Shown one piece after another: positions 49,094 to 64,000 of a stretch of 64,000 nucleotides of DNA. The notes beneath the pieces are model-generated. The model was not told where the DNA came from, searched no databases, and saw only the letters and a list, made by a program, of their open reading frames with translations. Position 1 is the stretch's first letter, and the number at the start of each line of letters is the position of its first letter. This stretch comes from Paenibacillus tundrae. Lineage in GTDB: Bacteria > Bacillota > Bacilli > Paenibacillales > Paenibacillaceae. Position numbers and translations under genes: made by a program. Location of the stretch: NCBI RefSeq assembly GCF_036884255.1, contig NZ_CP145605.1, positions 5,951,001 to 6,015,000 on the forward strand. The letters are read 5' to 3'.

Positions 49094-49837
49094 TTGAATC
49101 GATGGACAACAGGACAAGTATCCAAACAGCGGAATATTTCGGTTAGAACACTGCGGTATTATGATCAGATCGGTCTGCTTAAACCGAGTTATAAGGAAGA
49201 TAACGGCCGCCGTTATTATTCAGAGGAAGATTTATTCACTCTCGAAAAGATAACCTTGCTTAAGTCATTATCATTACCGCTCGATGACATTCGAAATGTA
49301 ATGGACAGGCTGTCCTTTCGCCATATTTTGATCGCACACCATAATCATCTTCAGGAGCAGCTCACTTCGCTTCAGAGCAGTATTGCCAATACGACATCCT
49401 TGATTAACATGGTTGACCTAGAAGGTGAACTCTCTTGGGAACGCGTCTCTCATCTGGTTCATAACGTACAGCCTACTGCCAAACAGTGGATCGAATATTT
49501 CACCGATGACGAAAGTGCATTTCTACAGAATGCCCTACCCAAGCTAAGTAGCGGTGACCAGGCAACTCAACAATATGTCTCTTTGCTACGACGGATTGAG
49601 TGGTGCATACAGGAAGCTATTCCACCACAATCCGATGAAGGTTACCATATTGCCTTTGAGTTAATGAAGCTATCACAAGAAACCTTCAACGGAGATGAGG
49701 AATTGATGGAGAAGTTCTGGGAAGTGAGGAAGCGCCCTACTGAAGAGTCAGGACTATACCCCGTATCTGAGGACGTGCTGAATTTTGTGGAGATGAGCAT
49801 TGCTTATGTCCTTGAAAAAGAGAAAACACAGCAATAG
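49094..49837 (+). CDS. MerR-family transcriptional regulator
   Basis: A 247-aa regulator. Residues 3-72 form the MerR winged helix (TTGQVSKQRNISVRTLRYYDQ, then GRRYYSEEDLFTLEKI), followed by a coiled coil (~80-110) and a C-terminal ~130-residue domain reminiscent of the TipAS drug-binding type (FLQNALPKLSSGD; SEDVLNFVEMSI). Such proteins often sense hydrophobic compounds or peptides. TTG start nine bases after AGGAG. Divergent from the CPBP protease, a plausible target. Confidence 0.88.
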   Translation: MNRWTTGQVSKQRNISVRTLRYYDQIGLLKPSYKEDNGRRYYSEEDLFTLEKITLLKSLSLPLDDIRNVMDRLSFRHILIAHHNHLQEQLTSLQSSIANTTSLINMVDLEGELSWERVSHLVHNVQPTAKQWIEYFTDDESAFLQNALPKLSSGDQATQQYVSLLRRIEWCIQEAIPPQSDEGYHIAFELMKLSQETFNGDEELMEKFWEVRKRPTEESGLYPVSEDVLNFVEMSIAYVLEKEKTQQ

Positions 49838-50511: not shown

Positions 50512-50549
50512 AAAAAAAAATGACCCCGGTAAACCATTACCGAGGTCAT
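50512..50549 (-). terminator. Terminator of the tubulin/GTPase operon
   Basis: On the minus strand ATGACCTCGGTAA pairs with TTACCGGGGTCAT (complement of 50520-50549, one mismatch), followed by eight or nine U. It is the only strong terminator found from 64000 down to here, so genes 50647-64000 likely share one transcript end. Confidence 0.9.
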
Positions 50550-50646
50550 CTACATGAATGAATTGCATAACATGAGTTCTTGAATGTATTGTGTTCAGAC
50601 ATGAGTTCATAACATTCAATACGTGAAACGGACAGAAGGCTGTCTT

Positions 50647-53600
50647 CTACGCTTCCGGTTGTGGCGACAGCTCAATCACAGTGGTTCCGCTTTGGATACT
50701 GACAATGTTCGCTGGATCCACATCCGTCGGGAGTGAGACCTGTTGGCCGAAAGGATATAAGCGATCTGCCGCCTCAACGGTAAGTGGTTCTGTCACAGCA
50801 GAGCCTTCTTCTCCAGACTCCGCTCCGTCAGAAGATCCCGATGGCGTTGTCCCCGCTCCATCTTGGGAAGACTCGTTCGTAAATGCCGTAGAATCGGACG
50901 TTGTGGTCGAATCGGAATCCTGACTTCCATTGTTACTGGATTGGGCATCATCGGTTGTGTCAGTAGAGGTACTTTCCGAACTTCCATCAGAGCTATCCCC
51001 CGTATTCCCTTCTTCCGTATCCTGTGATTCACCATTAGATGAATCTACCGTATCTGGTTCCTCATTCCGGTTGAAGCTCTCCCACTCACTTGTCGCATCC
51101 TCCAGTTCAACGACGCTACCGTCCGCCAGCTTCAATTGCAGCTGATCCGTCTGCAATGAATCGCGGTCTGCTTCATTACGGAAGCGAATGACGAGTTGCG
51201 GCGCAGTCGCTGTACCGCTCTCTTCGGTTACTGGTACGATGTATGCCATCTGATCGGCTAATGAAACTTCTGGTTCAGCCGGGATCGCAGGGTCTTGAAC
51301 CGGTGTAGGTGAAGCGGCAGGTGGTTCTGCGTTATTCCCCATTAAAGCATACGTTCCTCCGGCAATGCCGAGAATCAGAATCACCACGAATGATCCTAGA
51401 AAGACATTTTTCCTCTTCCCAGTCAATAAACGTACCAGTGATGAAGATAACTCCGACTTCGCCCGGTCATAGGTTGGCTTCATGGTCTTACTTGCTCTAG
51501 CATAATATGGCTTAAAGGCTGACTTCGACTTGAAGGCTTCACGATCATGCGCCTTGAAGTACGCTACGATTGCATCAGAGTAAGGCTTGCTCGCTTGAGA
51601 CCCTCGGATAAAAAGCCGTTGATTGCCCGACCATTCCAGAAACGGGTACAGACCTCGCTCACTGCCTGCTGTGCTCCGAACAAACTCAATCAGTCCTGCA
51701 TAATCCAGCTTAGCCCCACTACCTCCACGGTAAAAGGCAAGAGGCAACGCTGCGAAAGCATCCTGATCAGGACGTTCTCTAAGCTCATCGGCAAGCCAGC
51801 GTCTGGTCCAGCGCTGGAGCTCATTACGCTCTGTAAGGGAGAGGGCTTCCAGTTCTTCTTCATCCCGACCTTCCCCACTGAGCCATGCTCTCGCGGCCAG
51901 CATCATGTTCGTGCGTGCGGATACATCTGAGCCCTGACGCGCAGCCCAATCCCGAACCTCACGATCATGCTGCAAAATATCAATGCTTAATAACTGTGCC
52001 CGGCTCACTCGCTCTAGATCAAGATCCTGAATCAGGAAGAGATTAATAACGTAGGCAAGCTTGTCCGCCAAGCGGGTTAATTGCTCTTGATATGACAAGG
52101 CTCCAGCGTCAGCTCCAGGTTTACGTTCTGGACGGGCAACGGCCTCGGATTGACCGATCTGTCCTGTAATTCCCGTGTCTACAGGGTCTTCCGTAGAAGT
52201 CGAGACACGATCCAAAACACTCACTCGACTGAGTGCTTCATTGGCGGATTGCACCGGATTTGGTGCAGAGCATAACCGTTCACGAAGCTCTATGGCTGTC
52301 CGTTCTAGCAAAAAAGCATTATGGATCGACGATGGATGGGATAGCACCCAATTTTCAATGACGTCCACCACATTTGCCGCTAACTCTGTATGTTTTAATT
52401 GACTGTCTAAGTAAGGCTCAAATAACAGCTTGGTCAATGATTCATTGGTTAACACCTTACCGAAAAATGCACGATTCAGCGCAGCATTCCGATCCAGTAA
52501 ACTGTATAATTCTTGAACCGCCCGCATACGTTTCTGGGTACGCGCATTGTTGATCGCATAGATGAAATAGTCCACGATTCGGGATTGAACCACTGGCGCG
52601 GCTACGGCGAAATACTCACCGATCCGAGCTGCAACCGGCTCTTCAGGCACATTTTCACGTTTAACATTATTAAGTTCCCGACTAAGCAGCGTCAGGAATA
52701 GCTCATTCAGACGAGCGCGGCGCTGGATTGCTCCTTCGGGTTTCAGATATGTAAGAAGCCCACTTAGCACACCACTTTTATTATTAAGGTATAGGTCTTC
52801 ATGTCCTTGTTCCAGCCGGTAAAATAGCGATAACTCACCGTACGCTTCAACCGAAAGCTCACGTCCAGGCTCCATGCCTGACAACATCTCGTCGGCAAAA
52901 GAATAAAACGGCGTAGCCGCCTTCGGATCATGCAGCAATGACCATGCAAAATCCATATAAGGAAGATTCGCCACTGCTGCATCCACGTGGTTTACTCTGC
53001 CTGACATGAGATCAAACGTAAAGTCCTTCTCTGTATTACGATCTTTGGGACGAAGTGTGCCTCTCTCCACGAACTGAAGGTGGATGCCTTTCTTCGCCTG
53101 TGGCTCCTTGGCAAACGTCATGAACCCAAGCTGTCTCCGGAAGGCGTAAGGTAGTGCCGTATAGAGCAGACGAAGCAACCCCTTCGCCCCTGCTGTGACT
53201 TGCTCTGCGGGCAGATCCAATGCGATATACACTTTACGGCGTGTCGCGACAGCCTGCATCACAGCATAGAGCAAACGCTTGAACAACGTCTCGTTCAGTT
53301 TTAACCCCGCCAGAATCTCGACAGGTGCGACTGAAGAGACTTCAGAGCTCTGCCCGACTTCCCTCTCCCTTGTAGAGGCACCTGGCAATTCAGACAGCGC
53401 AGGCAGTACTGTGCCTTGCTCGATGTCATAGGACGTAGCAAACACCGCATCCAGCCAGCCGCCTGTTCTCATCAGCTCTTCCGAGCGCTCAGGAGACAAT
53501 ACATAGTTATGGGCGAAGAAGGCACTACGAAGCCCGGTAAAGTCTGCCGCTTGGTACACATTCTGCCCTAGAATCGTCTCGCCACTGTCCAGATGCAGTA

Positions 53601-53826
53601 GATGTATGGCAGCTGGGAACTTGGTCTCGTCCTTCTCGCTTCGGCCAGTCAGCTCCGCAGGAGCATCATAGACACAGTACGGATGAAGTAATTTTTTGAT
53701 AAAAGAAGGTTCCAGTCCCGGTGATGCCGCGACCGTATCGAAGCCTTCTGTGGTGCGAAATACCCCTCGCCGCTCTCGGGTATACATCTGTTGTTCAATC
53801 GGCGGGGTCATGGAAGACTGCATCAT
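50647..53826 (-). CDS. GTPase-associated protein 1 (GAP1)-like single-pass membrane protein
   Basis: A 1059-aa protein. The N-terminal ~150 residues (QMYTRERRGVFRTTEGFDTV, then ASPGLEPSFIKKLLHPYCVY) resemble the GAP1-N domain that accompanies DO-type GTPases. A long helical middle (~200-790) contains KVYIALDLPAEQVTAG and many charged helices. One membrane helix lies at ~808-828 (FLGSFVVILILGIAGGTYAL). The last ~229 residues are outside by the positive-inside rule, with a Ser/Thr/Asp/Glu-rich low-complexity stretch at ~920-1010. Its ATG overlaps the stop of the GTPase gene (ATGA, 53826-53823), so both are made together. It may be the effector or regulator of that GTPase; its biochemistry is unknown. 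Confidence 0.8.
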   Translation of the reverse strand: MMQSSMTPPIEQQMYTRERRGVFRTTEGFDTVAASPGLEPSFIKKLLHPYCVYDAPAELTGRSEKDETKFPAAIHLLHLDSGETILGQNVYQAADFTGLRSAFFAHNYVLSPERSEELMRTGGWLDAVFATSYDIEQGTVLPALSELPGASTREREVGQSSEVSSVAPVEILAGLKLNETLFKRLLYAVMQAVATRRKVYIALDLPAEQVTAGAKGLLRLLYTALPYAFRRQLGFMTFAKEPQAKKGIHLQFVERGTLRPKDRNTEKDFTFDLMSGRVNHVDAAVANLPYMDFAWSLLHDPKAATPFYSFADEMLSGMEPGRELSVEAYGELSLFYRLEQGHEDLYLNNKSGVLSGLLTYLKPEGAIQRRARLNELFLTLLSRELNNVKRENVPEEPVAARIGEYFAVAAPVVQSRIVDYFIYAINNARTQKRMRAVQELYSLLDRNAALNRAFFGKVLTNESLTKLLFEPYLDSQLKHTELAANVVDVIENWVLSHPSSIHNAFLLERTAIELRERLCSAPNPVQSANEALSRVSVLDRVSTSTEDPVDTGITGQIGQSEAVARPERKPGADAGALSYQEQLTRLADKLAYVINLFLIQDLDLERVSRAQLLSIDILQHDREVRDWAARQGSDVSARTNMMLAARAWLSGEGRDEEELEALSLTERNELQRWTRRWLADELRERPDQDAFAALPLAFYRGGSGAKLDYAGLIEFVRSTAGSERGLYPFLEWSGNQRLFIRGSQASKPYSDAIVAYFKAHDREAFKSKSAFKPYYARASKTMKPTYDRAKSELSSSLVRLLTGKRKNVFLGSFVVILILGIAGGTYALMGNNAEPPAASPTPVQDPAIPAEPEVSLADQMAYIVPVTEESGTATAPQLVIRFRNEADRDSLQTDQLQLKLADGSVVELEDATSEWESFNRNEEPDTVDSSNGESQDTEEGNTGDSSDGSSESTSTDTTDDAQSSNNGSQDSDSTTTSDSTAFTNESSQDGAGTTPSGSSDGAESGEEGSAVTEPLTVEAADRLYPFGQQVSLPTDVDPANIVSIQSGTTVIELSPQPEA

Positions 53827-55088
53827 CCCACTCTCCCCTCAATGTACTTCAGCTTGTAGAGCAGCCATAGGAATGGCTCGTCCACGCGAATCGGACTAAC
53901 AACCCCTTGTAGCTTCATATCTACCGGATTGCTTCCTAGTGCGGACACAGCGAAGTATGCCGTATCTTTGAAATAGACATCCATTGTGCCTTTGAACGGA
54001 CGATCCACCTTCTCAATAAACCGGCGAATCTCTCCATCAATATTCTCAAACTCCGTCAAGTCGAACCAATCGCGGTGTACCATGTTACGGAACACGTTGC
54101 TGTTGGATTTGATGTAATCGCCATCCTCATCCTTCAGGGAATGCAGCATGTCGCTTTTGGTCAGCACAACAGCTGTTGGGATGTTTGTTTTTGCCTTATC
54201 CTGATAAGCGATAAAGTCACCGAACAATGTCAGTACCACGTCGCGCGGTTCATCGTATCTTGGTGTCCACTCACCCGGCTCATTGCCGAGGTTTATCCGG
54301 ATTTTGTCCCGAATGGAGCGAATCTGAAGTGGATCAACCATAAACAGAATGCCTGCTGAGTTTTTGATATGCTGTCCATGAAGTCCTAGATAATCCTGCT
54401 CCACCATACCCTCGCCAGCCACGTCAAAAAACACCAGTGTCAGCGGAGCTTTATCTTCGTCCTTGAACACAAATTGGAAAATAAACGGCTCCTGCAGCTT
54501 CTCCTTCTGCGTTGAATCCAGCAGATCACCCCGCTCAAACAACGGCTCTTCATAATCCGCACGGAATCTACGGCTAATCTCTGCATTCAGCGGCATACAA
54601 GCAGCATCAAAATGATCGGCTGTGTAATGCTGTAACGTATGGATGAGCGATGTCATGTACACCGATTTACCCACCTGGGAAGCCCCAATAATGGATATGA
54701 TATTGCTTGGCGCCTTGCCTGCTGTCACAGGTAGCTCATTATGACAATGCGGGCACAGTCTGCGGCGGGTAACGACACCATACCGATCATTTAATCCCAT
54801 CACAATGTTATCTGAATAAATGCGATGCTCCTCTGGTACGTCATGCGGGGCAAGCACGGCCTCCATATCAAACACCGTATCAAGCCCAAACCGTTCACGG
54901 TAGCGATTCAGCTTCGCATCTTCCCCGAGTGCGTAGTCTTCATCGTCGTCTCGGTGATGAGCTGCCCGGAATACAACCTCTTCAGGTGAGAATTTACTGA
55001 AACAATAGGGACATACAATATCGTAAAATAGCGGCCGTTCTTCTGGCTGCTGTCTTTTCAAAAAACGACTAAAAAAGCTCATAGCCAC
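53823..55088 (-). CDS. Zinc-ribbon P-loop GTPase (DO-GTPase/TRAFAC-like)
   Basis: A 421-aa cytoplasmic protein. Cys pairs CPYC (C26, C29) and CPHC (C112, C115) form a split zinc ribbon around a charged insert. Then the P-loop is GASQVGKS (135-142), switch II is DVAG (222-225), the base-specificity motif is TKSD (310-313), and AVSALG sits near 382. The order fits a small-GTPase-like domain of the DO-GTPase type predicted in bacterial conflict systems. The TKSD form is a variant of NKxD, so guanine specificity is likely but not certain. Coupled to the downstream GAP1-like gene by a 4-bp overlap; 32 bp separate it from the gene upstream. Confidence 0.85.
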   Translation of the reverse strand: MAMSFFSRFLKRQQPEERPLFYDIVCPYCFSKFSPEEVVFRAAHHRDDDEDYALGEDAKLNRYRERFGLDTVFDMEAVLAPHDVPEEHRIYSDNIVMGLNDRYGVVTRRRLCPHCHNELPVTAGKAPSNIISIIGASQVGKSVYMTSLIHTLQHYTADHFDAACMPLNAEISRRFRADYEEPLFERGDLLDSTQKEKLQEPFIFQFVFKDEDKAPLTLVFFDVAGEGMVEQDYLGLHGQHIKNSAGILFMVDPLQIRSIRDKIRINLGNEPGEWTPRYDEPRDVVLTLFGDFIAYQDKAKTNIPTAVVLTKSDMLHSLKDEDGDYIKSNSNVFRNMVHRDWFDLTEFENIDGEIRRFIEKVDRPFKGTMDVYFKDTAYFAVSALGSNPVDMKLQGVVSPIRVDEPFLWLLYKLKYIEGRVG

Positions 55089-55120
55089 TCCCCTCCCCTA
55101 ATCGAAAGTCAACCTATTCA

Positions 55121-55768
55121 TTAGTCCGATATTAGCCGGTACACCGTTCCATACTTGGGGCCGTCTGTGAAGAATAGTCTAACGTATTCATCCTTCGCAA
55201 TCTCAACAGGAGGCATCTCATTTCTTCCAGGTGCAAAATCATTTACAAATGGATACACCGTACCGTCTTCCTTATTAAGCGGAACACTCCCCTGTTTACG
55301 AACATAACAGAGCGCCTCCTTCGGAACGGGTGCTTCGGTCGTAACGGTCATAAATACACTTTTTCTTTTCTGAAAAAAACCACTCTTATACCGAATGGAA
55401 AATCGAATATCCGCCTTGCCTGCACTCGCCATTACCGTGTTCTCACCGTTCGACTGACGGAGCAAGACAGGCTCGGCATCATCCATCCTACATATATAAA
55501 CCGTATAACGGATCGCTCCAAAACCTGTTATCCGATCCACGTATCCGTTAGTTGCTTTGTATTCCTCACGCGTATAGAGCTTCAACTTACCTTGCGCATG
55601 TGCATCGCCGCTGTTCTCCTTGCCCAGCATCGCAACCTCCAGCCGTTCAACATACACAGCCTCAACACCCTCTGGCCAGAGCCAGCGGAGCGTACACATG
55701 CCTTCGTCCACCGCCAGTGTCAGTTTGCGAATGGTGGGCGCCGAAGGATCTGCATCCGTAAATTGCAT
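55121..55768 (-). CDS. Small beta-rich protein of the tubulin/GTPase operon
   Basis: A 215-aa soluble protein, no signal or membrane helix. Alternating hydrophobic strands suggest two beta-sandwich units: residues ~10-115 (fibronectin III-like: KLTLAVDEGMCTLRWLWPEG, IRYTVYICRMD) and ~120-215 (IRFSIRYKSGFFQKRKSVFM; EYVRLFFTDGPKYGTVYRL). No family is recognised. It lies 21 bp after the vWA gene and 32 bp before the GTPase gene and is likely an adaptor in the same complex. Confidence 0.7.
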   Translation of the reverse strand: MQFTDADPSAPTIRKLTLAVDEGMCTLRWLWPEGVEAVYVERLEVAMLGKENSGDAHAQGKLKLYTREEYKATNGYVDRITGFGAIRYTVYICRMDDAEPVLLRQSNGENTVMASAGKADIRFSIRYKSGFFQKRKSVFMTVTTEAPVPKEALCYVRKQGSVPLNKEDGTVYPFVNDFAPGRNEMPPVEIAKDEYVRLFFTDGPKYGTVYRLISD

Positions 55769-55789
55769 GTTCCTAAGACCTCCCGATGT

Positions 55790-57085
55790 TTAGAATCCTT
55801 TGCTTCGTGTGTCTCTTGCGCGTCCTCCGAATCCTTCCGCCGAAGCGTTCCCTCTTCTGGCATCGCGCCGGCCGCGATTGCTCCGTGGTGTGTTCTCCTT
55901 CATCGGAATAATCCATGTAAACAGGGTCAATACGGAAGCCAGCAGGAGCATTGCGCCAAGCCTTACGAATGCATCGCCGACAGGCGATCCATCCAGCCCC
56001 CATTCCAGAAGGAGACCGGCTAACAGACCTGAGACTGCCCCACCAATGCCGAAGCTGAGCGCCAGATGGCGATTATCAAATACCAGTCCAAGTGATACAC
56101 CCAGCGCTACCCCAATCAACAGCAGGGCAGCTACGCGGAAAATTGCCAGATACATGCTATGCTCCATCATCCCAGTACGTTCCGTAACCAGTGTTCGCTC
56201 ATCAATCGTATCGTAAATCTGCTGGAATGCCAGGTTAAGCCCACCTGCATCCGGCACATCATAATACAGGCCACCTGTCTGCCCAGCAATGCTGCGCAAA
56301 AGATCCGTACCCGAAGGGTCTACCAAGCTGAGTCCCACCGTGTTGACCGCAATCTGTTCATTCACGTATTCCGACAGAATGCCAGACGTATCGACCTCAC
56401 TCATTCCGTCAGATAACAGTATCGCGACGGTACCACGCTTCGGATCTTGTTTGCCCTTAATCTGTTCCATCGCTTCTTTCAACGCCGCATCAAAGTTCGT
56501 TCCCCCTGAGGTCGTCACGATGCTATCGATTTTGTCATATACCTCATTCTTAGCAGCTTCATTATCCAATGCAATGAACGGCTGCAACAGTTCTGGCTCA
56601 TCCGCAAATGTAATCACGGCTACCTGCTTATCGCTCTCCATCTGGCTAATCAGTGTCTTGGCTGCCTCAAAGCGGCCATTATTCGGATCGGTCTCTGTCA
56701 TGCTACCTGAATTGTCAATCATGAGCACGATATCCTTAACCTGCTTCACACCGCCTGGATTGATCTGATACAGCAGTTGCACCACTAGCCCCACCACGAA
56801 TAAGAGTGCAAGCGTTGCGGGGACAAGTAATTTCCATGACAAGCTCAGATATCGCAGCTTCCATGAAGCACCGTTAAGCTTCGGTGAGATCATCTCAGCG
56901 AGCAGGCAGAATAGACCTACACTTAGTGCAACAACACCGAAATATAATCCCATCAGCAACAGACGCGGCATCTCTCCAAGCCACTGATGCAGCATGATTT
57001 CCCCTGCCGCAAAACCTACTGCTCCGCCAATGAGGCTGAACAGTACCAGGAGAAGATTGATTTTTCGCTGCATGTTCACATGCAT
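55790..57085 (-). CDS. Polytopic membrane protein with an extracytoplasmic vWA domain
   Basis: A 431-aa protein. Three N-terminal helices (~11-30, 42-63, 87-107) have a positively charged loop between the second and third. A vWA domain spans ~117-300 with an intact MIDAS site: D124, S126, S128 (MIDNSGSM), T196 (SGGTN) and D226 (LLSDG). Three more helices and an Arg/Gly-rich tail follow. Positive-inside reasoning places the vWA domain outside and both ends inside. vWA domains bind partners through Mg2+. The start is uncertain between 57085 and the ATG at 57073. It lies between the pseudo-tubulin and beta-rich protein genes. Confidence 0.88.
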   Translation of the reverse strand: MHVNMQRKINLLLVLFSLIGGAVGFAAGEIMLHQWLGEMPRLLLMGLYFGVVALSVGLFCLLAEMISPKLNGASWKLRYLSLSWKLLVPATLALLFVVGLVVQLLYQINPGGVKQVKDIVLMIDNSGSMTETDPNNGRFEAAKTLISQMESDKQVAVITFADEPELLQPFIALDNEAAKNEVYDKIDSIVTTSGGTNFDAALKEAMEQIKGKQDPKRGTVAILLSDGMSEVDTSGILSEYVNEQIAVNTVGLSLVDPSGTDLLRSIAGQTGGLYYDVPDAGGLNLAFQQIYDTIDERTLVTERTGMMEHSMYLAIFRVAALLLIGVALGVSLGLVFDNRHLALSFGIGGAVSGLLAGLLLEWGLDGSPVGDAFVRLGAMLLLASVLTLFTWIIPMKENTPRSNRGRRDARRGNASAEGFGGRARDTRSKGF

Positions 57086-57148
57086 CCTTTCTACACCAGC
57101 CCTTAATAAGGCTGAATTAATACAAGCGTGAGTGATAACGAAGGCTAG

Positions 57149-59566
57149 CTACCGCACGGGAGACAGTTTGTCCGCAAGACCTTCAGGATGTAGCTCATAT
57201 CCGTTATCTGTATAGGAATCGTAATATACCTTGGCATTACGATAGACCATCAGATCTTCGAGATGGAAGCCTCCCATAAGATTCAATTTCTCTACGCCGC
57301 TGCTTCGCTCTTCATACACGACACCAAGCTTGTAGATTCGTGAAGTTTCCTCGGCATGTGCCGCGTAGACCATGAAGGCACTATCATGGTCGCCAAAGAA
57401 ATATTTTTCTTCATACCGATGTTCCTGCGTATAATCGAACACCCTAACACGAACAACAGCCTGATCCTCTAACGTGCGATATAATCGACGGAACAGGTCA
57501 TCACGAGTCAACACATTTTTGTCCCCATACGTAATCGTGACATTGGCACGCTGTAATAGCTCTTCTTCGAAAGGGACACGCAACGGTTCAGCGCTCAGTA
57601 ACAGCGCATGACATACGTCCATAAGACGCTCCAATACACGCTCCTTGCCCTGCGTAGCCAGATGGTTCATATCCCCCATATGGCGGTCTTCAAACCATAC
57701 GGCCCGTCCACGCTTGGCCTCCAGATCCGTGATCAGATCTTCCGTCACTTTGCCGTAATATTCCATGACATTTTGTCCAATGTACTCATCCGCTGCAGCT
57801 ATGCTCTGCTCGGCTGTCTCGCGCAATGTTTGTTCCAATTCCTCAAGGGATTGGGTGATGCCTCGACTAAAAGCGTGAAGCTGCTCCATCTCCGTATCGT
57901 AGATGCGCAGCAATTGCAATTCATTTTCGATCCGTAATAGCTCCACCTTCGGTACATACACTCGCTCAAGGATACAATCGATCACGTTGCGTACATTTTG
58001 TTTATCACGGAATAAAGCTCTTTTGAACGGTTGATCCTGCACCTGCTCCTGTAGTCGCTGCTCAAGAACAGCTCGTGCCGACTCAAGCTGCATGGATTTG
58101 TCCCGAATCAATCCAAGCAAGCCTTCCCGTACACTTCCCATTCCATGATTACTCCAAACCGCCCACTGGAAGTAACCTACCTCCGGGTGCTCACCCCGGG
58201 CTTGTTCCGCCTGCTGACGAAGAGTACCTTCGGTACTCCGCTGACGTACACGTTCTTCGACCTTACGTGCCACATTATCGCGGAAGTACGCCTCGGCTCC
58301 ATGACCGAACAGCGCTCTCTCCGCTTCCCGTAGCGATAGCGGCTTGAGATCAGCGTAACTGACGTTATGGGTCATGATGCCGCTCATACCGCTGACCAGA
58401 TCCTCACCTGGTAATAGCCCATCAATCTTACGTTCTATCGTAATCGGATCAAGGCCGAAGAACGAAAGCTTGTCCTTGATGCCCCAATCCTCCGGTTCCT
58501 TCCGCATCTGTTCAAGCAGATGCCGGTAGAAGTGATACAGCACAGCAAGCGCTATAGGCTTGTTGGGACGCCTGATCTCAGCATAACCTGCGCTGGCATA
58601 ACCATGCTGATCTGAGGTGGTGCGAATGTTATTTTTGAATGAGGTATTGTTGTAGGTGTTCGCACCTGTGCTCGAAATGGTGCCAGCAGCATCCATATCC
58701 TGTTTACGATTCTTGAGCAAACAGATGCGGCAGATGATCTCGGCATTCTCTATCCACCCACCAGATACCCCTGTGCCCCGTTCATTCTTATCTGACAAAA
58801 TATATACCAGGTCAAACAGCGGCGAAGCGGGATGGGTGACCGGAATAGAAATACCATCTTCCGTCACGAGCAGACGACCGCTAAAGGTATAGTCCAAGCC
58901 CTGCATATAATCAAGCTCTCGCAAAAAGGCCAGTCCTGCTGCGCTTGCATACCCGTATGAGTTCACTTGCTCCATTTCACTAACTAGAACATGCAAATCT
59001 GTCTGCACGGATTTGAAGGATTGAGCCAGTATCGTTTCCGTCAATTTCGTAAGCTCAGGCAATAGCACATTCAATGGGTCATCCGCTCTAGTTACAACCG
59101 TCACATAGATACGGTCAAACGAAGAATACAGACGCCCGTACTCAGCGATCCGGTTACTCACTTGCCGTAATGTACGATTCAGACCCGCAAGTGCCTGATC
59201 CGAATCGTGAAACTGACGGTATATGTCTTTGCGCAATGTTTTGGATGATTCGGACTGTCCCGTAGACAGCGGTAGAATATGACGAGCGACCTGGCTATCC
59301 TCAGATCGTTCGCCCCTACGCTCCTCTTGTTGATCCAAGTCTTCTGTTCCAACCTGTACATAAACTACGCCATCCCCGTTATCCCACTTCGTTCGGTTGA
59401 TTTCACGGACAACAGGTAATGCCGGTGCAACCAGGTCTCCCACGAACAAGAACAAGGCAGGGTAATGGATGCTGCTGCGACCATCACCCAGACTGCCCTG
59501 ACGTTCCTGCTCCTTCGTATATGATGCCGCGAATTGCTCCAAGCTGTGCTTCATCCCGGCAGCCAT
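57149..59566 (-). CDS. Tubulin-like paralogue lacking the GTP-binding signature (pseudo-tubulin)
   Basis: An 805-aa cytoplasmic protein that aligns in order with the preceding tubulin-like protein. ALFLFVGDLVAPALPVVREI (37-56) matches LIIGLGGTGIDALLRLKYQI. VVYVQVGTED (67-76) matches VEFLAFETNE. FLRELDYMQ (214-222) matches ALKELDYWM. PLFDLVYILSDKNERG (249-264) matches PPFNLCHLISATNTEG. HPEVGYF and KVYYDSY match HPEQGPF and KVYEESY further on. The GGTGSG loop is replaced by ADDPLN (161-166) and the first glycine-rich loop is lost, so GTP binding is unlikely. A coiled coil lies at ~490-600. It starts one base after the tubulin-like stop, so translation is coupled. This assignment is my own reading, not a database hit. 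Confidence 0.75.
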   Translation of the reverse strand: MAAGMKHSLEQFAASYTKEQERQGSLGDGRSSIHYPALFLFVGDLVAPALPVVREINRTKWDNGDGVVYVQVGTEDLDQQEERRGERSEDSQVARHILPLSTGQSESSKTLRKDIYRQFHDSDQALAGLNRTLRQVSNRIAEYGRLYSSFDRIYVTVVTRADDPLNVLLPELTKLTETILAQSFKSVQTDLHVLVSEMEQVNSYGYASAAGLAFLRELDYMQGLDYTFSGRLLVTEDGISIPVTHPASPLFDLVYILSDKNERGTGVSGGWIENAEIICRICLLKNRKQDMDAAGTISSTGANTYNNTSFKNNIRTTSDQHGYASAGYAEIRRPNKPIALAVLYHFYRHLLEQMRKEPEDWGIKDKLSFFGLDPITIERKIDGLLPGEDLVSGMSGIMTHNVSYADLKPLSLREAERALFGHGAEAYFRDNVARKVEERVRQRSTEGTLRQQAEQARGEHPEVGYFQWAVWSNHGMGSVREGLLGLIRDKSMQLESARAVLEQRLQEQVQDQPFKRALFRDKQNVRNVIDCILERVYVPKVELLRIENELQLLRIYDTEMEQLHAFSRGITQSLEELEQTLRETAEQSIAAADEYIGQNVMEYYGKVTEDLITDLEAKRGRAVWFEDRHMGDMNHLATQGKERVLERLMDVCHALLLSAEPLRVPFEEELLQRANVTITYGDKNVLTRDDLFRRLYRTLEDQAVVRVRVFDYTQEHRYEEKYFFGDHDSAFMVYAAHAEETSRIYKLGVVYEERSSGVEKLNLMGGFHLEDLMVYRNAKVYYDSYTDNGYELHPEGLADKLSPVR

Positions 59567-59567
59567 C

Positions 59568-62500
59568 TTACTTCAACCTTCTGCGAATGTCGTTCAGCTT
59601 GGACGACATCGTTCTGTAGAACTGATAGATATCCTCGCCATTCGCCAGCTCGACACGTTCGTATTCCAGACGATCACGGGATTCCATGAACAGTGCAGCA
59701 AGTTCATCCAGCTTCGCAAGGAGCGGAGCAATATCCTCCGAAGCGGTCAGATCGTTATCCCGGCGTGAAGCTTTGCGAAGCAAGGTGTTCCGATCCTTCT
59801 CGGACAATCCACGGAAGTTGCCAAATACCTCATATTCAGCAAAATTACGACTCTTCATTAGATTGGCGAACGGCTCCCATGCATCTTCCTCGGGATCACG
59901 ATCATAGACATACAGTGCACCCTTCTTCACAATTGTGTCCGTATAGAGGGCTTCAATGAAGCGATCATACCACTGCTCTTCATCCTGATGCTGAGCAAGG
60001 ATACCTTCAAGCTCAGATACTTTCACTGAGATTGCATTCATCTTCGCCAGTTCCTCGCGTACACGCGCAATCAGTTGCGGAGAACGCACCAGGTTTTCTT
60101 TCGCCATGTCTTCATTAATACTTCCGAAAATATCCTTCACGCTGACCCGTGGCAATCCTTCGGATTGCAGACGTTTCAGTTCATTGACTGCCCGTTTCAC
60201 TTCACCTAGGTTCGGTGTGGTTGATGTCAGACGCATGTCGTAGCTGCCTAACTTCGCGGATAGATCAAACGGCTCTGTCGTTACTACCGCGTAGCGGTTG
60301 CTTGTGTTTTCATCCAACGTCTTCGCCATAATGATGTTGTACCCGAGCGCTTGCTCGAATTCGGAACGGACACGGGCATTGTACTGCTTCACGCGACTGT
60401 TCTCATACACATCGCCCCATGACTTCTCTGGGATCGGGGATGGAAGATACGTCCAGTTATTTCTCTCCGTCTGTACAAGGTGGCGACCAATGCCCTCTTT
60501 GTCGAGAATCGTACGCTCATAACTTTCTTCATATACTTTCAGCGGTGTATACACGAAGAGCGGCACACCGTTACGTGTGTTCAACCAGAAGATTCGGTTA
60601 CGAACCTCGCTCTCCTTGACCGTAAAGTGAGACTTCCCTACCGCATTGTTCTGATAATTGCGAATACCTTTGAGAATACCCGGTGCCTGTGTTGGTACGG
60701 ATACGAATCCCCATGATGGGAAATGAAGGCTGCCTGTGCTATTGCTCAGGTTAAATACCGGCACCGCTTCATCATCCAGTTTACCTGCGATATGCCGTTC
60801 TACGAACTTCTCAACAGACTCATCCTGACCATACTTAATCACGAGGAAATCTTCCATTGAACGGGTAATCAGATCGCCAAACTTCTCGGTCAAGAAGTCG
60901 GAGATGGAACTTACCACGTCAATCTCGTTCTCCTTCACCCATTGGTTGGAGTTCTCCAGCAGTTCACGCGAGAAGTCACGGATCAAGTCATCCGTATCAC
61001 GCTTATCTAACAATCCATCCACGACGCTGACGATATCCGGTACACTTACCACGTTCCAATAATATGTCTTGTTGCCTTTGTGGTCTGCCTGTTCTTCCCC
61101 ACGGGTTAGAATATCTCCATTCTTGGAGAAAATCGAGCTGAGTGCATTCAACGTCTCACTAAATACGTTATAGATGCGGCTGTTCTCTTGGTTGAGCAGT
61201 TCATACAGATCCTCATAGAACTCAATCATCTGTTCGTTCCGCTCTACATCAGCGTGCAACCAGTACTCATGAATTTTAGCTTCAATATAAGCATTCTTTT
61301 TCTTCTCTTTGGAGACGAAGGCGCTCTTGGCATCACCAAGCTTCTCTTCAGACTGTTCTTGGGCAGCCTCGATATCGCGTGGAATGCGGAAAGCATTCTC
61401 CCGTAAAGTCTCAATGTACGATTGGATCATCTTGAGAATACAGAAGCCTTTCTCCGTATAGATGAGACGAGAAACATAGAATGGCCCCTGCTCTGGATGC
61501 AGGAACATCCGGCGAATCTGTTCGGTGAATTGCCCTGCAATCTCACCCGGATGCTGTTTCTTCGCTTTGATATATTCTTCACGTGCACGTGCTAGGAAGT
61601 TCTGTTCCAGCTCCGTGTCCATGTTCACCACTTGGGATTTCACGACATTGTTGTAGGACAGACGTTCACTGTTCTGATAACCTGGTAGCGGCTCCGGCAC
61701 GCGGGATTCAAATGCCTTCACTACGCTTTCGAGATCAATGCCTAACTTACGGGCGAATTTCTCGGTATCTTCCTGATTCGGTGCTTTGGAGAACATCGTG
61801 CTCATCTTATCGAACATCCGGTAAGCCAGATATGTCGTCATTTCTTCAATCGGCAGTACAGCCGAGGATGCACCGATGATGTTGTAATCATAGTTCGCGG
61901 GGTATACCTTGTTCATCTGTGCAATGTTGGTACGAATGTTGCTAATGTAGTCATGGATCGCGAACTCTTCACCAGACTGCTTCTCTTCACTCGCCATGAA
62001 GTTAGTGATATTCTCTGCCGTAACATTCATACAGTAATCGTACGCATTCTCCAGCAATTTGCCTTCCGTGTTCGTGGCTGAGATCAAGTGACACAGGTTA
62101 AACGGTGGCAATGGCGAGTTAACGGTCAGGATATTACCGTACTTCTGAGTAAAACGTTCACCGCGGCTGTCCACGTTCATCCAGTAGTCCAGCTCTTTAA
62201 GCGCAGCATAACCGTTCTTGCGGATATACTCCCGCGTATGCTCACTCAAGCTTTTGTTAGACAAGTTCACGTCTGGCGTGAACAGGTAGCCCAGTGTATT
62301 GACGCGGTCGATCCCCGCTGAGCCATGATCACGTTCGATGATGCCACGCACAATATAGGAGATATCGAGGAAGCACCCACTGCCAGTACCCCCGGACAGA
62401 CCTGTAAGCAGGAACACCATCAATTTCTTATTCGTACCTACGGAAAGGGTCTTAATCTTCTTATCGATGGCTTGCACCACTTGGTTGATCTTCGTGAACA

Positions 62501-62957
62501 ATAGCAGACGACCTGCCTGACGAACGCCTGCAGCTCCGTTCATGCCATCCGTAATGCTCAGCTCTGGCGAGAGCCAGTCCGTAATATAAGGCTCCAGTAC
62601 ACTGCGGTTCTGCAGCAATCCGCCAATCTCGGCATTGGACAGTAGCACAAATTCATTAATCGGGTCTAGACCGATTCCTTTATATCTCTTCGCACGATCC
62701 TGTTCGTTCGTTTCGAATGCGAGAAACTCGACATTGTCTGGCTTCTCCATTTTCTTCTTAGACACTGGATCTTGAGGCAGCTTGAAGCGACGATTAATCT
62801 GATACTTGAGACGAAGCAATGCATCGATCCCTGTTCCCCCAAGACCAATAATCAACATCGGGTTATCGATGGTATCAACCCTGATTTTTTCGCTGACAAT
62901 TCCTCCGCCAAGCGATACATCCAGTTGCTGAATATGTTCTCTAACAATCGGTTTCAT
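59568..62957 (-). CDS. Tubulin-like GTPase (Tubulin_2 family)
   Basis: A 1129-aa protein. The N-terminal GTP-binding fold contains LIIGLGGTGIDALLR (35-49), GAAGVRQAGRLLLF (141-154), the tubulin/FtsZ signature GLSGGTGSG (186-194), and PPFNLCHLISATNTEG (284-299). A long C-terminal region of ~800 residues, mostly helical, follows, far larger than in FtsZ or TubZ. Proteins of this class are predicted nucleotide-driven filament formers or scaffolds of unknown role. It ends one base before the pseudo-tubulin start and begins 18 bp after the upstream gene. The 5' end is well marked by GGGAGGACATGG. Confidence 0.9.
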   Translation of the reverse strand: MKPIVREHIQQLDVSLGGGIVSEKIRVDTIDNPMLIIGLGGTGIDALLRLKYQINRRFKLPQDPVSKKKMEKPDNVEFLAFETNEQDRAKRYKGIGLDPINEFVLLSNAEIGGLLQNRSVLEPYITDWLSPELSITDGMNGAAGVRQAGRLLLFTKINQVVQAIDKKIKTLSVGTNKKLMVFLLTGLSGGTGSGCFLDISYIVRGIIERDHGSAGIDRVNTLGYLFTPDVNLSNKSLSEHTREYIRKNGYAALKELDYWMNVDSRGERFTQKYGNILTVNSPLPPFNLCHLISATNTEGKLLENAYDYCMNVTAENITNFMASEEKQSGEEFAIHDYISNIRTNIAQMNKVYPANYDYNIIGASSAVLPIEEMTTYLAYRMFDKMSTMFSKAPNQEDTEKFARKLGIDLESVVKAFESRVPEPLPGYQNSERLSYNNVVKSQVVNMDTELEQNFLARAREEYIKAKKQHPGEIAGQFTEQIRRMFLHPEQGPFYVSRLIYTEKGFCILKMIQSYIETLRENAFRIPRDIEAAQEQSEEKLGDAKSAFVSKEKKKNAYIEAKIHEYWLHADVERNEQMIEFYEDLYELLNQENSRIYNVFSETLNALSSIFSKNGDILTRGEEQADHKGNKTYYWNVVSVPDIVSVVDGLLDKRDTDDLIRDFSRELLENSNQWVKENEIDVVSSISDFLTEKFGDLITRSMEDFLVIKYGQDESVEKFVERHIAGKLDDEAVPVFNLSNSTGSLHFPSWGFVSVPTQAPGILKGIRNYQNNAVGKSHFTVKESEVRNRIFWLNTRNGVPLFVYTPLKVYEESYERTILDKEGIGRHLVQTERNNWTYLPSPIPEKSWGDVYENSRVKQYNARVRSEFEQALGYNIIMAKTLDENTSNRYAVVTTEPFDLSAKLGSYDMRLTSTTPNLGEVKRAVNELKRLQSEGLPRVSVKDIFGSINEDMAKENLVRSPQLIARVREELAKMNAISVKVSELEGILAQHQDEEQWYDRFIEALYTDTIVKKGALYVYDRDPEEDAWEPFANLMKSRNFAEYEVFGNFRGLSEKDRNTLLRKASRRDNDLTASEDIAPLLAKLDELAALFMESRDRLEYERVELANGEDIYQFYRTMSSKLNDIRRRLK

Positions 62958-62975
62958 TCCATGTCCTCCCTTTGG

Positions 62976-64000
62976 TTACTCTAAATATTCAATCAAAATT
63001 GTTTTATCCGCTTGTTGCAGTGGGATGCTCAGCCGATCACCGTTCTTCAGTTCAACGCCTGAGCTTGCATCAACCGCACGACCGGATTTCTCCAGCGTGC
63101 CTCCTGCCGTGTTGCGTATCATAATCCGGTCACCATTGCCGGGTGTAAATATATATTTTTCGGTTTCCTTAAGTTCAGGGTCTAGTTGCAGCAATTGATG
63201 TAGATGGAACTTGCCCCGGAACGATGCTAGCTTTTTGTATTGTGGATAGGACTTGTCTCCCGTGTTCTCATCACGAATCTCGACGACCATCTGACCGACA
63301 AACCCACGATTTTTACGTTTCAGCCAGCCCATCAGGAACCAGCCTCCAACCGCTACAACGATCAGAGCGATGACACCCAGAATGACCGGTAACCATGGGA
63401 ACGGCTTGTCCTCTCCACCGGCTGATGTCGTTGGCTGAGTTCCGCTTCCCGCTGCTCCGCCCGCATTAATGATGACTGGAGCGCTCTCGCGGTAAAAGCT
63501 ATCTTCCTCTGCCCGAATAACTAATTCATATTGATGGTTATCCGGAACGGTGAACGTACCAGCAAATCCATCTCCCGTGTTCTCGATTGGATGTTCCTCA
63601 CTTTTACCTGTATCCACATCGTTGATCACCAGCGTTGCCTTCATGTCCGCATACAAATCTTGATCCTGTAATGGTTGACCGCCATTCTCCAGCTTCGCGG
63701 TTAGATCGATCTTGTCGCCTTTTTTATAGGACTTGGTCTTAATTGGATCCACGACGAGTTGCAGATCGTAGTTAAACAGCAGATTGATATCGATACTGTC
63801 CTTCGGAGCCCCTTTGACTCGTAGCTTCCAATCTCCCTCCTCTGGTTTGAGCAGCTTCACCAAGGAATAGCTCTTCGAAGTGGATAGCTTGGCTGCATCG
63901 GAGTTCAGATCGACAGCCTTGCCAGCTGGATCGGTCAATTGAATCTCGACTAGCTTCGATGACATGATCGAGATATTAGCTTCTAACACACTATCATTCG
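62976..64000 (-). CDS. Membrane-anchored beta-sandwich protein, probable C-terminal part of a vWA protein (truncated by window edge)
   Basis: The frame is open through 64000, so the N-terminus is outside the window; the GTG at 63989 is an internal codon. Visible order: the end of a domain typical of the strand after vWA modules (NDSVLEANISIMSSKLVEIQ), an Ig-like beta-sandwich (~to residue 165: YDLQLVVDPIKTKSYKKGDK, FAGTFTVPDNHQYELVIRA), a Gly/Ser/Thr linker, one membrane helix (LPVILGVIALIVVAVGGWFL), and a cytoplasmic ~110-residue beta domain that looks FHA-like or related (KYIFTPGNGDRIMIRN; LKNGDRLSIPL). It starts the visible operon, 18 bp before the tubulin-like gene. The vWA call is inferred. 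Confidence 0.75.
   Translation of the reverse strand, partial: NDSVLEANISIMSSKLVEIQLTDPAGKAVDLNSDAAKLSTSKSYSLVKLLKPEEGDWKLRVKGAPKDSIDINLLFNYDLQLVVDPIKTKSYKKGDKIDLTAKLENGGQPLQDQDLYADMKATLVINDVDTGKSEEHPIENTGDGFAGTFTVPDNHQYELVIRAEEDSFYRESAPVIINAGGAAGSGTQPTTSAGGEDKPFPWLPVILGVIALIVVAVGGWFLMGWLKRKNRGFVGQMVVEIRDENTGDKSYPQYKKLASFRGKFHLHQLLQLDPELKETEKYIFTPGNGDRIMIRNTAGGTLEKSGRAVDASSGVELKNGDRLSIPLQQADKTILIEYLE

Follow-up and report, generated by a model that had tools for sequence, protein, structure and literature searches.

A conserved operon for two tubulin-family proteins, a GTPase and GAP1 in Paenibacillus tundrae and its possible role at the cell envelope

What could be the role of an operon that joins two tubulin-family proteins, a GTPase with a GAP1 neighbour and two von Willebrand factor A (vWA) proteins? 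The question is raised by a locus in the complete 6.53-Mb chromosome of Paenibacillus tundrae, of which we analyzed a stretch of 64,000 nucleotides (positions 5951001-6015000; the window). Numbered from the start of the window, seven minus-strand genes span 50647 to 64769 as a single operon with a terminator; we name them A to G, A being the downstream-most and G the first. Together with a divergent gene, H, they keep the same order in all loci compared, and those of their genes for which trees were built descend mostly vertically. We tentatively propose, at somewhat short of an even chance, that the products of the operon and its divergent genes form a single machine across the cell envelope, with a tubulin-like scaffold under the control of a GTPase switch.

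The gene arrangement as such has already been described. In the portions of their study that deal with GAP1-N2 systems, Kaur et al. (2020, eLife, PMC7159879) assign ~52 percent of the neighbourhoods to a first theme. In its firmicute version, tubulin and vWA genes come in twos, one vWA protein being polytopic and the other fused to YtkA, and the GAP1 protein ends in a highly polar C-terminal extension; our locus is a further case of this tubulin theme. The same portions group GAP1-N2 neighbourhoods with conflict systems, mobile, variable in their components and enriched in multicellular bacteria, and so contain the link of GAP1 and DO-GTPases to computed nucleoside triphosphate-dependent conflict systems that an earlier note on this DNA had drawn. 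A functional test of the gene set was not found in the open-licence literature. New here are the fixed order, the divergent H, a further gene J, a tubulin relative (E) that lacks the GTP-binding loop in 75/75 loci, and a predicted likeness of GAP1 to DENN proteins.

Layout, conservation and inheritance

The operon is tightly packed: A and B overlap by 4 bp, and the following spacers measure 32 (B/C), 21 (C/D), 63 (D/E), 1 (E/F) and 18 bp (F/G). An intrinsic terminator with a 15-pair stem and a T run lies 3' of A on the minus strand (50518..50551; L002 1052-1019); its stem is the longest among the 20 terminator-like sites of our scan, in which shuffled sequences gave 12.0. The seven open reading frames, their fold classes and the compact transcript with its terminal terminator are as the earlier note had them, and Pfam bears out its calls of GAP1, DO-GTPase, vWA and Tubulin_2. 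Its expectation that the operon runs on upstream with further genes proved wrong, as past 64000 there is only the 5' part of G (ATG at 64769), beyond which I and H are transcribed in the opposite direction and lie outside the operon.

We fetched 60 loci from the family, 20 of them from the same genus, and 15 from three other families, which makes 75 loci in four families; one of the 15 outside genomes (G492) is 8 percent contaminated. Divergent H, followed by G, F, E, D, C, B and A, is constant in order and strand in 60/60 and 15/15 loci, so that the gene set is not a product of chance. Gaps of more than 200 bp between core genes are non-coding stretches or pieces of broken core genes; foreign reading frames occur in gaps of L061 and L062, read by eye as oxidoreductase and, in L062, also as transposase. 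No recurring extra gene inside the operon and no effector gene between core genes was seen in the loci inspected. Broken reading frames in core genes of L036, L045, L049 and L062 reflect either sequencing error or decay.

Tubulin_2 occurs in 66/75 congeners, none of which lists a second full-length copy, in 170/295 genomes of the family (166 above the cut-off), in 23/26 genomes of a second genus, inferred to be Brevibacillus, and in 66/398 genomes of the class, 27 of these being full-length and outside the family. GAP1-N2 is missing from 9/9 congeners that are devoid of Tubulin_2; among five further odd genomes it is found in one, a fragmented assembly. H is present in 165/295 family genomes, all within the 170 with Tubulin_2; we count the divergent pair I and H as part of the unit. 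The five Tubulin_2 genomes without H comprise four weak matches and G155, whose full, strong match is accompanied by neither H nor GAP1-N2 and probably marks a different kind of Tubulin_2 locus.

Gene trees of F, E, A and H were compared with that of rpoB over 40 genomes. Tree distances correlate with those of rpoB at 0.81, 0.75, 0.73 and 0.76, respectively, with 0/999 permutations as high. Of 24 well-supported rpoB splits, F recovers 17, E 16, A 17 and H 13, while supported splits conflicting with rpoB amount to 4/25, 10/28, 8/30 and 8/25. We conclude that the four genes descend mostly vertically, with some conflict. F and B evolve slowly and E, H and A fast, mean identity being 0.89 for rpoB, 0.77 for F, 0.46 for E, 0.39 for H and 0.36 for A. 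Flanking genes are shared only within groups of relatives, so that the block may well have changed place in the past.

These data bear directly on the proposal made by Kaur et al. (2020; PMC7159879), in the portions concerned, for all GAP1-N2 systems, namely a role in biological conflict, in which a GTPase-GAP1 core would sense an invader and trigger a lethal or blocking response. The mobility and the enrichment in multicellular bacteria reported there speak for it, and the fast evolution of A and H could reflect an arms race. However, no effector gene interrupts the core of the inspected loci, the order is constant in 75/75, presence is near-core in two genera (66/75 and 23/26 genomes), and the trees mostly follow rpoB. 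Components that vary between close relatives, as expected of a mobile conflict system, were not seen in the 75 invariant loci, although the flanks do vary. PADLOC-DB 2023 gave 0 matches for the eight operon and H proteins, a search that an undescribed system would escape. We therefore consider a conflict function quite unlikely. The constant order, the lack of an effector gene, the absence of GAP1 from congeners without the tubulin and the mostly rpoB-like trees are more in keeping with an envelope machine resident in the genome than with a conflict system on the move; the 'possibly antiviral' of the earlier note is weakened in this lineage, and its envelope reading fits better.

The tubulins, the GTPase and GAP1

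Gene F (59568..62957, minus strand, like all operon genes) encodes a GTPase of 1129 residues with a Tubulin_2 domain (E-value 1.1e-75, Pfam; the FtsZl1 family) and a GGTGSG loop; the tubulin GTP loop is found in 73/75 loci. Its neighbour E (57149..59566) is a degenerate second member of the family. In the window, its Tubulin_2 match is weak and below the cut-off (E-value 0.0059), but 41/54 orthologues match the family, the best at 3.2e-6; CetZ and TubZ are the top fold matches of its structure model, and the glycine loop that binds GTP is missing in 75/75 loci. Taken together, these findings support the earlier note's pseudo-tubulin. The model further predicts a long helix at residues 521-591. 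Foldseek returned no match to it at an E-value of 0.001 or better, and sequence searches of the PDB gave none for E at an E-value of 1 or better and only chance-like matches for F. The closest named proteins come from Paenibacillus. In public records, orthologues of E carry the name 'transcription initiation factor TFIID', which finds no support in this analysis, and one Tubulin_2 protein, P0162, which is 82 percent identical, is labelled Yersinia pestis, probably through contamination or mislabelling.

Gene B (53823..55088) encodes a DO-GTPase (DO-GTPase2, Pfam) with two CxxC pairs of a zinc ribbon. Walker A, FFDxAGE and the CxxC pairs are present in 75/75 loci and a TKSD/NKTD-type motif in 69/75; the PDB sequence search gave no match at an E-value of 1 or better. 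Translationally coupled to it is A (50647..53826; 1059 residues), with GAP1-N2 and GAP1-M matched above the cut-off beside the DO-GTPase (PF20013, 2.8e-41; PF20014, 5.8e-25; PF19993, 6.9e-07). A is predicted to comprise a longin-DENN-like part at residues ~6-341, a helical ARM/HEAT-like part, a transmembrane helix at 808-826 and a polar tail on the outside, which in the window gene has 233 residues with a high content of D, E, S and T and which is far shorter in loci outside the family. The 'glycosyltransferase' of public records is a name for which this analysis offers no support; one GAP1 cluster, P0351, bears the label Paenibacillus polymyxa.

Could GAP1 regulate the GTPase that it accompanies? 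In fold comparison, in which a chain missing from the list is uninformative, its model resembles the longin-DENN GTPase regulators FNIP2/FLCN and DENND1A with borderline scores, and the matches limited to residues 6-341 are, in 5/5 cases among those listed, DENN-family proteins or TagF. The strand and helix order of the first part of the model fits that of longin domains, and the next domain shows five strands, as does the DENN domain described in PMC3521125; compared with the d-DENN domain of the module, the part that follows is helical and matches ARM/HEAT proteins. From the model, it is possible, if doubtful, that GAP1 is a bacterial longin-DENN regulator, driving a small GTPase that would control both the pair of tubulin and pseudo-tubulin and the vWA proteins as integrin-like receptors. 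The likeness may instead be a shared arrangement without a shared function, GAP1 merely keeping the GTPase in place as a scaffold at the membrane and leaving its nucleotide state unaffected, a possibility to which we give a little under an even chance. In its favour, the scores are borderline, Foldseek found no match to the model at an E-value of 0.001 or better, the PDB sequence search gave only unrelated matches and no link to DENN, and TagF, which is not known as a GTPase regulator, matches as well as DENND1A. Less easily accommodated by a mere scaffold are the consistent DENN and TagF matches, the order of strands and helices and the neighbouring GTPase gene. According to the relevant part of a 2012 survey, the DENN module is an invention of the eukaryotic stem, and we found no bacterial DENN reported in the open-licence literature. 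If true, the likeness would provide a mechanism for a large uncharacterized class of GTPases and bear on the origin of eukaryotic GTPase regulators.

Membrane proteins, the divergent genes and a proposed envelope model

Of the remaining operon proteins, D (55790..57085) is polytopic, with 5-6 predicted transmembrane helices in 70/75 loci, and its VWA domain (Pfam) has an intact metal-ion-dependent adhesion site (MIDAS) motif, DxSxS, in 75/75. G (62976..64769, of which 62976..64000 lie in the window; 597 residues) consists of a signal peptide or transmembrane helix, a VWA domain (matched by Pfam in the full-length protein; DxSxS in 72/74), beta-sandwich domains, a transmembrane helix and a short cytosolic domain. 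Among 26 orthologues of G, GBD_Hemicentin is matched in 26/26 and MG2 in 17/26; YtkA is not matched among the best 25 of the 39 families listed, nor is FHA, which we had suspected by eye in the cytosolic part and hence reject. C (55121..55768; 215 residues) reads as a beta-rich, predicted soluble protein; Pfam gave no family and the PDB no sequence match at an E-value of 1 or better. The theme of Kaur et al. also has a fibronectin type III repeat component, for which the beta-rich C was considered. As a prediction, this agrees with the earlier topology of vWA modules outside and nucleotide-driven machinery inside.

On the divergent side, I (equivalent to window positions 65058-65201; L003:2059-2202) encodes 47 residues with one transmembrane helix and is detected in 47/60 family and 15/15 outside loci. 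H (65205-66137; L003:2206-3138), of 310 residues, is predicted to cross the membrane once or twice and carries a four-cysteine zinc ribbon and a conserved helical domain. Touching H on its strand (median distance -3) is J, of ~570-680 residues, found in 27/40 family loci outside the genus, 14/15 outside-family loci and 0/20 loci of the genus, counts in which some fetched stretches end within ~2 kb of H; J was likewise found in none of the 75 congener genomes, in a search without a positive control. A bacterial SH3 domain in 10/31 copies and an N-terminal hydrophobic helix, seen by eye, suggest that J contacts the cell wall; the PDB sequence search with J gave only chance-like matches.

The region that separates I from G (L003 ~1771-2058) contains TTAAG-N6-TTAAG, which resembles a direct repeat, near the start of G and, upstream of it, TATATCAT, conserved in 43/58 regions; both look like candidate conserved control sites. 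A promoter of the extracytoplasmic function type upstream of G, GAAAC-N16-CGTA, occurs in 47/72 regions (own locus 1/1, genus 20/20, family 30/40, outside 1/15; 2.74 of 76 in shuffles) but was rejected, since on the opposite strand the motif is where the coding sequence of I begins (MVTYVCLTILFLF). Other sigma patterns were found in at most 11/72 regions, with 3.0 expected.

From the observed gene content, order, motifs, co-occurrence and mostly vertical inheritance, and with the folds of E and A and the topology as predicted from models, we infer the following scheme of interactions, signalling direction and outcome. Ligands on the cell wall or surface would be bound outside the cell by the MIDAS-type vWA domains of D and G, joined in other genera by the SH3-bearing J, and the ligand state would be passed inward through the transmembrane helices of D, G and GAP1. 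With its predicted longin-DENN-like N-terminal part, GAP1 would regulate B, promoting either nucleotide exchange or GTP hydrolysis, and B in turn would set whether F assembles at the membrane, E possibly serving as capping or adaptor subunit. As the likely outcome, the envelope would be reinforced or remodelled locally.

Close to this envelope model, from which it differs mainly in outcome, is a machine for membrane remodelling, secretion or motility, with F polymerizing to shape the membrane or to drive a surface apparatus instead of sensing or reinforcing the wall. In the relevant section, Makarova and Koonin (2010; PMC2875224) link FtsZl1 tubulins with vWA proteins, a distinct GTPase and membrane proteins and propose membrane remodelling. 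Moreover, an experimental clue comes from a distant relative: as reported in PMC9880817, Synechocystis mutants in which the Tubulin_2 gene sll0445 or one of its neighbours is interrupted are impaired in phototaxis, and the encoded proteins are found in association with those of pilus assembly; as photosystem II fluorescence is also altered in these mutants, the effect on phototaxis is not specific. Against such a machine, the conserved set includes no pilin, secretin or cargo gene, and the Synechocystis cluster has other partners (FtsA- and DivIC-domain proteins). Flagellar FHIPEP is present in 295/295 genomes of the family irrespective of the operon and thus carries no information on a motility link. 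We regard this alternative as rather unlikely.

The two widely cited computational readings, mobile conflict system and membrane remodelling, predict different things. In this lineage, the constant order, the near-core distribution and the mostly rpoB-like trees favour the resident envelope machine, and the question is thereby open to testing in non-pathogenic bacteria. If GAP1 is indeed a DENN regulator, the unit would amount to a bacterial machine that links signalling to the cytoskeleton and is made of the kinds of parts found in eukaryotes: GTPase, DENN regulator, tubulin and MIDAS receptor.

Outside the unit, a neighbour resembling MerR-type regulators (window 49094-49837) matches the PADLOC model mad1 (E-value 6.2e-11) over residues 3-48 only, as would be expected from a shared DNA-binding region.

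Comparison with known systems

With the firmicute theme of Kaur et al. (2020; PMC7159879), as outlined in the portions concerned, our locus shares GAP1-N2/M with a transmembrane helix and polar extension, a zinc-ribbon DO-GTPase, two tubulins, and a polytopic and another vWA protein. Unlike that description, which does not name H, I or J and whose main text contains neither DENN nor longin, our analysis adds these elements; and while the systems described there are mobile with variable components, the gene set here is fixed in 75/75 loci. Likewise, as in the FtsZl1 system of the relevant section of PMC2875224, a Tubulin_2 GTPase stands beside MIDAS-type vWA proteins and a P-loop GTPase of a distinct kind that bears Walker and TKxD-like motifs (GTP loop 73/75, DxSxS 75/75 in D and 72/74 in G, Walker 75/75, TxKD 69/75). 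The tubulin of that system has a coiled coil ahead of a helical C-terminal domain; here, a long helix is predicted in E (residues 521-591). In contrast to that system, no OmpA or protein-kinase gene belongs to the conserved set, in which the loop-less tubulin and GAP1 are constant components.

Eukaryotic DENN-module proteins (FLCN/FNIP, C9orf72-SMCR8, DENND1A) share with GAP1 the predicted order of a longin-like followed by a DENN-like part, and the gene for GAP1 lies beside that of a GTPase; GAP1, however, is bacterial and membrane-anchored, continues into a long ARM/HEAT-like part and has no detectable sequence similarity to them. TagF (PDB 9t0n), an accessory protein of type VI secretion, is a fold match whose relation to GAP1 may be remote and which does not imply a type VI system.

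Paired tubulins are exemplified by BtubA/B and by alpha/beta tubulin, which our pair resembles in that two tubulin-family genes adjoin. Here, unlike in those pairs, one partner is devoid of the GTP loop, and E and F are only weakly similar. A loop-less tubulin fixed beside an active one offers a good model for the evolution of tubulin pairs.

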